Shown here: positions 11,710 through 13,462 of the stretch, in pieces
Numbering within the stretch: the stretch's first letter is position 1
How the letters are laid out: every line of letters begins with the position of its first letter
DNA from: Clostridia bacterium
GTDB lineage: Bacteria; Bacillota; Clostridia; Christensenellales; Aristaeellaceae
Length of the DNA: 37,482 nt
Direction: 5' to 3'
Assembly (NCBI GenBank): GCA_017459565.1
Contig: JAFUCP010000102.1
Location: 1 to 37,482 of the forward strand
Notes under the pieces: model-generated
What the model was told of the DNA's origin: nothing
Seen by the model: only the letters and a program-made list of their open reading frames with translations
Database searches by the model: none
Position numbers and translations under genes: made by a program

Positions 11710-12078
11710 TTAATCCATGATTTCCTCAGCGCCGGAACTGTCGGCGCTCTGCGTGGAAGTACTTTCAACCAGCGCGGGCAGGTTGACCACCCGCAGCTGC
11801 GATCCCTCCGGCATCGTCATGCCCAGCTGCTTGGCCAGGGCCGTGATCCTGTCGTGGTTGTGGTATTTGCTCAGGCTCAATTCCAGATTGTCGATCTTGG
11901 CCTGCCATTCATGCGTCTCCTTCCGGGTGGCCACGAGCTGCTTGTTCTGGCCCGTCAGCCGCGCCATCATGGCGATCTGCGAACAGGCGCCGAGGAACAG
12001 CACCAGCGCAAAGGCGATCATCAGCAGCCGGTTCAGCTTCTTTTCCCGCGTCCTGCGGGAAACGTGCGTCCTGTTCAT
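11710..12078 (-). CDS. ftsL: Cell division protein FtsL-like
   Basis: FtsL is a small bitopic protein that joins FtsQ/DivIB and DivIC and activates septal wall synthesis. The 122-residue product has a basic cytoplasmic start (residues 1-17), one membrane segment (about 18-38), and a heptad-rich coiled-coil stretch (about 42-78) ending in a region that includes ALAKQLGM, as in FtsL and DivIC. The tail is Ser/Thr-rich and acidic. GGGAGG stands 7 bases before the ATG. Sequence conservation is poor in this family, so identification rests on size, topology and its place directly upstream of ftsI. DivIC is the only real alternative. Confidence 0.85.
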   Translation of the reverse strand: MNRTHVSRRTREKKLNRLLMIAFALVLFLGACSQIAMMARLTGQNKQLVATRKETHEWQAKIDNLELSLSKYHNHDRITALAKQLGMTMPEGSQLRVVNLPALVESTSTQSADSSGAEEIMD

Positions 12079-12182: not shown

Positions 12183-12647
12183 TCAGTCTTTCCTGGGACT
12201 GAAATAGCGGTCGTTCACATATTCCAGCAGCGCGCTGCGGTCGCGCACGCTGTCCATGAAGGCGGCGGTGAAGCGGCCCTCGTCCCATATCTCCATCCAG
12301 CGGCCCATGCCCGCAAAGCGAATCGCCTTGTCCATGCCCGCCTGCTCCCGCAGCACCGCGGGCAGCAGCACGCGGCCCTGGCCGTCCAGAGACTGATTGG
12401 TGAAGGAAAAGGCCTTGACCAGCCGGACGTAGGCCATGCCCCTGGCGTCGCTGTCGGGGATGCGGTCCAGCTGTTCGCTCATGCTCTGCCACTTCTGCAC
12501 GGGATAGAGGGCAATGGCGTTGAACTCGTTGTTCAGGCCGATGGTAAAGCCGTCGCCCAGCGCCTCACGATAGGCCACGGGGATGGTCACGCGGCCCTTG
12601 GGGTCAATATTATGCGCGTAGTTCCCCGAAAATTCTGCGCCCGGCAC
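12183..12647 (-). CDS. mraZ: Transcriptional regulator MraZ
   Basis: MraZ is a ring-forming AbrB-like DNA-binding protein that regulates the dcw cluster it heads. The product contains two SpoVT/AbrB-type halves. The first has the hallmark NIDPKGRVTIPVAYRE (about residues 13-28 from this start). The second has LDGQGRVLLPAVLREQAG in its middle; the paired DxKGR/DGQGR motifs define the family. The GTG at 12647 is preferred because GGGGG lies 8 bases before it and it gives a short lead to GNYAHNIDPKGR as in other MraZ. An upstream GTG at 12656 directly touches that purine run. The promoter and an array of likely MraZ sites lie directly upstream. Family length is normal (about 150 residues). Confidence 0.94.
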   Translation of the reverse strand: MPGAEFSGNYAHNIDPKGRVTIPVAYREALGDGFTIGLNNEFNAIALYPVQKWQSMSEQLDRIPDSDARGMAYVRLVKAFSFTNQSLDGQGRVLLPAVLREQAGMDKAIRFAGMGRWMEIWDEGRFTAAFMDSVRDRSALLEYVNDRYFSPRKD

Positions 12648-12680
12648 CGGCTTCACCCCCTTCTATGCCACTCTGTATGA

Positions 12681-12725
12681 CACATTATACCACATCCACT
12701 CCCTTTGTGCCACTTTTTGACACTT
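12681..12725 (-). promoter_or_regulatory. Array of five MraZ-box-like repeats, 10-bp period
   Basis: On the minus strand, AAGTG (12721-12725), AAGTG (12711-12715), AAGGG (12701-12705), ATGTG (12691-12695) and ATGTG (12681-12685) stand exactly 10 bases apart. MraZ boxes reported from mollicutes follow AAAGTG(T/G)NNN in tandem, and E. coli MraZ also binds tandem TGGG-type repeats in 10-bp register. The array covers the -35 and -10 of the mraZ promoter, so the encoded MraZ probably acts here on its own operon. The binding is inference; the register is seen directly. Confidence 0.7.
12684..12713 (-). promoter_or_regulatory. Promoter of the dcw operon (mraZp)
   Basis: On the minus strand a perfect TATAAT (12684-12689) lies 37 bases before the mraZ start. 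The -35 is poor (GTGGCA with an 18-base spacer at 12708-12713, or TGGCAC with 17). A weak -35 fully covered by the repeat array described separately suggests a promoter that depends on a regulator. Confidence 0.75.
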
Positions 12726-12789
12726 ATTTCATATATTTTTCGTCTTTTGTCACATTCAATGGCTTTTTTCGGATAAACCCGATTTTAAT

Positions 12790-12803
12790 AGAACATACGT
12801 TTG
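12790..12803 (+). promoter_or_regulatory. SOS (LexA) box ahead of lexA
   Basis: The sequence AGAACATACGTTTG matches the Gram-positive LexA site (CGAAC-N4-GTTCG) at the key GAAC and GTT positions. It overlaps the -35 of the lexA promoter, so LexA would block its own gene until DNA damage. Confidence 0.8.
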
Positions 12804-12829
12804 CTTTTGGGTGAAAAATGTGCTATACT
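12801..12829 (+). promoter_or_regulatory. lexA promoter
   Basis: TTGCTT (12801-12806) and TATACT (12824-12829) are separated by 17 bases, with TG one base ahead of the -10 (an extended -10). The transcript would start about 27 bases before the lexA ATG. The SOS box covers the -35. Confidence 0.8.
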
Positions 12830-12862
12830 GTATTCATTAAACGCCGACAGGAGGGTGTTGCC

Positions 12863-13462
12863 ATGCGCGCTTCCCATGAAAACCAGCAGCGGATATTGGA
12901 TTTTATCAAATCGGAAATCGAGGACAAGGGCTATCCCCCGTCCGTGCGGGAGATCTGCGCCGCGGTGGGGCTGCGCTCCACCTCCACGGTCCACGCCCAT
13001 CTGAACCACCTGGAGGAGCAGGGCCTGATCCGCCGGGATTCCACCAAGCCCCGGGCGCTGGAGGTGGTGGACGGCACGCAGGCCCGGGGACGCAGCGTGC
13101 CGCTGGTGGGCAAGGTGACCGCCGGACAGCCCATATTGGCCGTGGAAAACATCGAGGATTATCTGATGCTGCCCCAGAGTATGCTGGGCAAGGACGAAAT
13201 GTTCTGCCTGCGGGTGCAGGGCGAAAGCATGATCGATATCGGCATACTGGACGGGGACATCGTGGTGCTGCGCAAGCAGGATACCGCTGAAAACGGGGAG
13301 ATCGTCGTGGCCATGACCCCCGAGGACGAGGCCACCCTCAAGCGCATTTACTATGAAAAGGACCGGGTGCGCCTCCAGCCGGAGAACAGCACCATGGAGC
13401 CCATTTACACGGAAAACGCCACCGTGCTGGGAAAGCTGGTGGCGCTGGTGAGACAGTTCTGA
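12863..13462 (+). CDS. lexA: SOS repressor LexA
   Basis: LexA represses DNA-damage genes and cleaves itself when RecA filaments form. The 199-residue protein has an N-terminal winged helix (about 1-68, recognition region VREICAAVGLRSTSTVHAHL). The C-terminal S24 peptidase domain contains the cleavage site A87-G88, the nucleophile S122 (in GESM) and the general-base K160. All catalytic residues are present, so it should be cleavable. The ATG at 12863 has AGGAGGG 7 bases upstream; an in-frame upstream ATG at 12818 would lie inside the promoter and is rejected. It is divergent from mraZ and appears monocistronic, with a strong hairpin after it. Confidence 0.97.
   Translation: MRASHENQQRILDFIKSEIEDKGYPPSVREICAAVGLRSTSTVHAHLNHLEEQGLIRRDSTKPRALEVVDGTQARGRSVPLVGKVTAGQPILAVENIEDYLMLPQSMLGKDEMFCLRVQGESMIDIGILDGDIVVLRKQDTAENGEIVVAMTPEDEATLKRIYYEKDRVRLQPENSTMEPIYTENATVLGKLVALVRQF

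Follow-up and report, generated by a model that had tools for sequence, protein, structure and literature searches.

In the window, by which we mean the whole 37,482-base stretch of DNA that was analysed, the region directly upstream of mraZ carries a predicted autoregulatory MraZ operator at the start of a division and cell-wall operon. Its boxes appear to be arranged as two plus two and fused with the promoter, and we put the probability of this reading, autorepression included, at roughly 0.8. The operator is probably ordinary in kind and unusual in layout: the principle is already known, and the exact layout is a local variant. On the minus strand, pentamers start at 12725 (AAGTG), 12715 (AAGTG), 12705 (AAGGG), 12695 (ATGTG), and 12685 (ATGTG) in exact 10-bp steps, so that the array fills 12725-12681 with GTG in four slots and GGG in one. 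The elements of the array and its promoter are listed here in the direction of mraZ transcription; the counts give the rows with GTG at the slot among 26 rows of the genus (own row included) and among 14 sister genera represented by one row each.

12724-12753, minus strand: upstream block GTGACAAAAGACGAAAAATATATGAAATAA, the 30 bases preceding the GTG of box 1, with GTGACA at 12753.
12721-12725, minus strand: box 1, AAGTG (in AAGTGTCA), upstream of the -35; GTG in 26/26 genus rows and 10/14 sister genera.
12711-12715, minus strand: box 2, AAGTG (in AAGTGGCA), whose GTGGCA is the -35-like hexamer; GTG in 26/26 genus rows and 13/14 sister genera.
12708-12713, minus strand: -35-like hexamer GTGGCA from the promoter scan, matching at 4/6 positions, overlapping box 2 and followed by an 18-bp spacer.
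12701-12705, minus strand: slot 3, AAGGG, degenerate, in the spacer between -35 and -10; GTG in 0/26 genus rows and 5/14 sister genera.
12691-12695, minus strand: box 4, ATGTG (in ATGTGGTA), which supplies the TG of the extended -10; GTG in 24/26 genus rows and 13/14 sister genera, the TGGTA-type anchor of the genus alignment fixing two of its three bases so that only the first G is independent.
12684-12689, minus strand: -10 hexamer TATAAT with extended TG (TGGTATAAT) from the promoter scan; an anchor of this type occurs once in each of 27 genus rows.
12681-12685, minus strand: box 5, ATGTG (in ATGTGTCA), whose AT is the end of TATAAT; GTG in 26/26 genus rows and 8/14 sister genera.

A sequence-only reading of this DNA had proposed five MraZ-box-like pentamers in exact 10-bp register, and the pentamers are indeed present at 12725-12681 beyond what shuffled sequence yields. 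The pair pattern AWGKG-N5-AWGKG has four matches in the window, which are the four consecutive pairs of the array; shuffled windows gave a mean of 1.05, and at least four matches anywhere in the window arose in 2 of 100 shuffles. When the 206-base intergenic region, array included, was dinucleotide-shuffled 20,000 times, no shuffle reached four of five pentamers at period 10, and across periods 8 to 12 four pentamers were reached once and five never. With the stricter GTG core, for which four of five slots are observed, four were reached in 1 of 20,000 shuffles at period 10 and in 7 of 20,000 at any period from 8 to 12. Runs of at least three consecutive boxes exist only if AAGGG is counted; judged by GTG, the array is two plus two with a degenerate turn between, and slot 3 most plausibly represents a blank or weak turn.

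Across the 3.4-Mb genome, AAGTGK-NA-N3-AGTGG, a pattern modelled on boxes 1 and 2, has a single match, at the array, which suggests local control. The spacing pattern GTG 0/10/30/40 (offsets in bp from the first GTG; since it reads the same backwards, a backward control is uninformative) has five matches in the genome, namely the array site and four overlapping ones on contig C125. We considered those four, which all lie in a 10-bp tandem repeat near a tRNA-Arg gene, as further MraZ targets and judged them unrelated. That repeat (TGACTTGTGA, 8.4 copies, L104 1495-1578, about 230 bp from tRNA-Arg(ccg)) mimics a 10-bp GTG register.

The genes flanking the array were assigned from family profile matches.

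12183-12656, minus strand: mraZ, GTG start, 157 amino acids, the probable cognate regulator (PF02381, E=1.2e-21; fold match).
11710-12078, minus strand: ftsL-like gene, next after mraZ with no rsmH between (TIGR02209, E=1e-8, 34.9 bits, below the cut-off of 42.45).
12863-13462, plus strand: lexA, divergent from mraZ (TIGR00498, E=1.5e-71).
12790-12803, plus strand: LexA-box-like AGAACATACGTTTG upstream of lexA, resembling the LexA-box consensus.

The protein encoded by mraZ scored 76.9 bits against PF02381, above the Pfam cut-off of 23, and its best NCBIfam match was TIGR00242 (E=2.7e-22), at 79.2 bits below the equivalog cut-off of 98.35; by sequence it is a divergent family member. The DxxGR-type loops of MraZ have a role in DNA binding, and the two loops of this protein, D18-P-K-G-R22 and D91-x-Q-G-R95, were invariant in 25 aligned proteins. 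A predicted structure of moderate confidence (pLDDT 60.9, poor at residues 1-14 and 106-157) matched solved MraZ folds with Z 10.5-11.1 over 119-122 aligned residues, including 1n0e (Z 11.1, rmsd 3.2, 121 aligned) and 9sz7 (Z 10.7, rmsd 3.8, 119 aligned).

We compared the surrounding loci, some of which in the genus and family are cut by contig ends, and found no rsmH (mraW) match in 27 genus loci or 23 family loci; 30 of 30 class loci have one. Nor did 20 further family loci of 2.5 kb yield a match. The rsmH of the window's genome sits on another contig. ftsL was matched in 26 of the 27 genus loci, and a penicillin-binding protein gene in 17/23 and 16/20 of the two sets of family loci. lexA adjoins mraZ in 22/27 genus, 3/23 family, and 0/30 class loci, a neighbourhood that puts SOS and division control side by side.

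MraZ is described as a ring oligomer in PMC7761207. On the reading we favour, it would recognize four sequence-specific boxes with a GTG core (mostly GTGG or GTGTCA) in 10-bp register, interrupted by a degenerate turn in mid-array. One ring would set successive subunits on successive helical turns along one face of the DNA, reading turns 1, 2, 4, and 5 and bridging turn 3 with little recognition of bases. Once bound, the ring would block RNA polymerase, and MraZ would thereby limit its own production together with that of FtsL and the products of the downstream genes. Autorepression by such occlusion fits best. The sequence, its register, the pattern of conservation, the overlap with the promoter, and the presence of an MraZ protein are observed directly; we infer the binding, the geometry of the ring on the array DNA, and the sign of regulation.

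Of 28 genus genomes, counting the window's own, 27 yielded an MraZ, and the 27 upstream regions were anchored on the extended -10, which was found once in each. One row (L013) lacks boxes 1-3 and was excluded from the 26-row counts. Among the 27 rows without use of the anchor, the longest in-register GTG run was 0/10/30/40 in 23 and 0/10 in 3; in L003 it was 0/10/20/40/50, which amounts to an additional GTG one turn before box 1. GTG pairs in the 27 rows were in excess at spacings of 10, 20, 30, and 40 bp (52, 26, 66, and 42 observed against 4.5, 4.0, 3.6, and 3.3 expected). Off-register spacings of 12, 22, and 42 bp were also in excess (22, 20, and 21 against 4.0, 4.3, and 3.0), a count that includes pairs with an extra GTG at +52. 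Because boxes 2 and 4 double as promoter elements, their conservation and the 20-bp spacing can partly be attributed to the promoter. Conservation in the genus extends beyond the boxes to everything between about -31 and +47 relative to box 1, so the genus level does not single out MraZ contacts and sister genera do so better.

In the 24 rows from sister genera, GTG was found at box 1 in 19, box 2 in 23, slot 3 in 5, box 4 in 21, and box 5 in 12. Two rows (L058 and L060) have four boxes consecutively, which could mean either that the blank turn was lost or that box 1 was lost and box 3 gained; in another (L062) each of the first four slots, slot 3 among them, is GTG. For the wider family we took 63 of the 129 family genomes outside the genus that gave a match and dropped two, one whose contig begins inside mraZ (L046) and one that is short (L086), leaving 61 rows. 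GTG pairs in these were again in excess at 10 bp (81 observed, 5.5 expected), 20 bp (44 and 4.1), and 30 bp (44 and 5.0), with a smaller off-register excess at 3, 13, 21, 31, 41, and 42 bp (38, 40, 29, 24, 26, and 28 against 3.4-6.3). The longest run was 0/10 in 22 family rows, 0/10/30 in 10, and 0/10/30/40 in 9, others making up the rest; thus the full two-plus-two array is a feature of the nearer genera.

The class sample comprised 70 of 181 class genomes with a match, 30 of the 70 being those with the best-scoring MraZ; two poorly placed rows (L117 and L132) and a short one (L145) were kept. In these 70 rows the longest run was 0/10/20 in 37, 0/10 in 9, 0/10/20/30 in 6, a single GTG in 6, 0/10/30 in 5, 0/20 in 4, 0/10/20/40 in 2, and 0/20/30/40/50 in 1. 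No 0/10/30/40 run occurred among the 70. Runs of five GTG were met in one family row (L093) and one class row (L149); in the latter a single slot of the 10-bp register upstream of mraZ is blank (0, 20, 30, 40, 50). The relatives that carry names are uncultured Clostridiales or Clostridia assemblies, several of them rumen-labelled, and Candidatus Pullichristensenella.

The register is thus retained in relatives, as the earlier reading had expected of a genuine array; the fifth box is not. All five pentamers occur together in 3 of 26 genus rows, and five boxes are rejected as a conserved feature. The core at slot 3 in the genus is GGG in 10 rows, GAG in 8, AGG in 6, GCG in 1, and GAA in 1, and the permissive A[AT]G[TG]G fits this slot in 6 of 26. 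These counts bear on the possibility that the operator truly has five boxes, with AAGGG also specifically bound as a weak box that tunes cooperativity. Of the 26 genus rows, 25 retain G at the third core position of this slot and 20 at the first, and GTG stands there in five of the 14 sister genera. However, the middle T is lost in every one of the 26 genus rows, full sets of five pentamers are as scarce as noted, and in 6 of 24 sister rows (L039-L041, L043, L044, and L056) the slot is of CCC type. We consider a specifically bound fifth box unlikely.

Upstream of box 1, 27 of the 30 columns of the conserved block have a majority letter at 73-100% in the 26 genus rows, against a mean of 42% over the 68 columns further upstream, which puts its conservation in the genus roughly on a par with that of the boxes; it is single-copy in the genome at up to three mismatches. 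Its GTGACA stands exactly 30 bp, or three turns, upstream of the box 1 GTG. Of the 26 genus rows, 22 have TGACA exactly at this position and 15 have GTG proper. In one sister genus (L047, L048, and L051) GTGACA lies 21 bp from box 1, so its membership of the MraZ register is not clear-cut. GTGACA also resembles a -35, but no good -10 for a second promoter was found behind it by eye or by promoter scan, and 12500-13000 gave no Rfam match at gathering thresholds. The A+T-rich half of the block probably lies where the upstream element for polymerase would be, with the GTGACA half beyond that; an upstream element, a site for a second regulator, and a distal MraZ contact are all possible roles. The last of these could be part of a larger wrap, in which the ring would read turns 1, 2, 4, and 5, bridge the blank turn, and reach GTGACA three turns upstream, wrapping ~80 bp. 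We regard this extension as doubtful, slightly more so than a fifth box. If it were true, operator, core promoter, and upstream element would form one composite closed by MraZ in this lineage.

The array spans both promoter hexamers, in agreement with the earlier placement of the boxes over the -35 and -10: TATAAT (12689-12684) and GTGGCA (12713-12708) are both covered. Box 2 is the -35, box 4 provides the TG of the extended -10, and box 5 shares its first two bases with the end of TATAAT; the sequence here reads GTGG-TATAAT, at once a box and an extended -10. The distance of 20 bp from box 2 to box 4 suits a -35/-10 distance, and the blank turn may therefore be only a promoter spacer. The difference between the AAGTG and ATGTG boxes had been taken as a hint of graded affinity. 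Since box 5 takes its AT from the end of TATAAT, that difference is no evidence for it; the two bases before the box 4 GTG, moreover, vary in the genus (AT, TT, GC, AC, GT, and CT).

A further GTGGCA lies at 12666-12671 (minus strand) near the inferred transcription start, its GTG 12 bp after that of box 5 and out of register. Among 27 genus rows, 18 have GTG at this offset (+52) and 4 have it one base further on; this element is possibly a spare box or a leader signal.

Among the 28 family rows with at least three in-register GTG, a -10 was found in 22, after box 1 in all 22, at +6 (1 row), +24 (3), +34 as in the window (16), or +38 (2); at +14, +24, and +34 the -10 hexamer starts four bases past the start of a register slot. 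In 44 of the 51 class rows with at least three boxes a -10 was recognisable; it preceded box 1 in 37 of these and followed it in 7. Some assignments far from the boxes are possibly due to chance.

Known MraZ operators share the register and differ in layout. In E. coli K-12, our yardstick, GTGGG boxes stand at -44, -34, and -24 from the mraZ start codon, in exact 10-bp register just before the gene as in the window, which makes the 10-bp register a signature of a known MraZ operator. However, the three boxes of E. coli Pmra lie downstream of the -10 according to PMC7761207, whereas the array in the window lies over the -35 and -10 with four good boxes and one degenerate one. At Burkholderia cenocepacia PmraBc, described in the same source, MraZ binds a fragment with four 7-nt repeats separated by 3-nt spacers, hence with a 10-bp period; unlike the array here, the repeats are continuous and span the transcription start, downstream of the -10. 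In Mollicutes the operator consists of AAAGTG[T/G] repeats (PMC8475190), sharing the core AAGTG[T/G] with boxes 1 and 2, and a Mycoplasma genitalium cryo-EM entry (PDB 9sz7) likewise has four boxes, going by its title, 'MraZ in complex with 4 box promoter'. The four boxes in the window are, by contrast, split two plus two by a degenerate turn. The mraZ leaders of other Clostridia have AAAGTGG-type boxes in 10-bp register but prefer the 0/10/20 run, and their -10 is mostly upstream of box 1. The repeated GTG motif is conserved across distant bacteria according to PMC7761207. In assigning the boxes to the MraZ type, the sequence-only reading is borne out by the equal spacing in E. coli and by 0/10/20 being the commonest run in the 70 Clostridia rows. 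Its remark that MraZ arrays usually have three or four boxes likewise agrees with those rows, with E. coli, and with PMC7761207. A literature search met no split or promoter-embedded MraZ array, which does not by itself show that none is in print.

The degenerate -35 had also been read as a sign that MraZ may activate as well as repress. Such a dual role could work by occupancy: when it is low, boxes 1 and 2 would recruit polymerase to the poor -35, and when high, boxes 4 and 5 would shut the promoter. The -35 does match at 4/6 positions only, a conserved block lies upstream of box 1, and MraZ is described as an activator in mycoplasmas in PMC7761207. However, the -35 is degenerate because the hexamer is itself box 2, and with an extended -10 (TGGTATAAT) the promoter requires no activator, which leaves activation unsupported. 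Boxes 1 and 2, moreover, lie on or beside the -35, so that a ring bound to them would be expected to clash with sigma. MraZ is reported as a repressor in E. coli and M. genitalium, and its loss in M. genitalium raises mraW, MG_223, and ftsZ, both according to PMC8475190. A dual role thus seems quite improbable, more so than the wrap. It is most improbable of all that the repeats are chiefly a promoter or leader signature (extended -10, discriminator, and A+T-rich upstream element) with MraZ binding incidental: boxes 2, 4, and 5 do overlap promoter elements, and within the genus the A+T-rich upstream block and the boxes are conserved to a similar degree, but box 1 lies outside the hexamers and yet keeps its GTG in every counted genus row and in most sister genera, and in 37 of 44 other Clostridia rows the boxes come after the -10 that was recognised, in a region where no known promoter element demands them.

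If the window does hold a split, promoter-embedded MraZ operator, it would offer a natural test of how the MraZ ring reads DNA. One turn is without GTG in every genus row and has GTG in some sister genera, and elsewhere four boxes are consecutive, while the register stays constant. The operator is fused with the core promoter here, whereas it is downstream of the -10 in E. coli and in most Clostridia rows with a recognisable -10. Finally, in the loci examined, the family has mraZ followed by ftsL and not by rsmH, an arrangement that bears on the purpose of MraZ without its usual operon partner.
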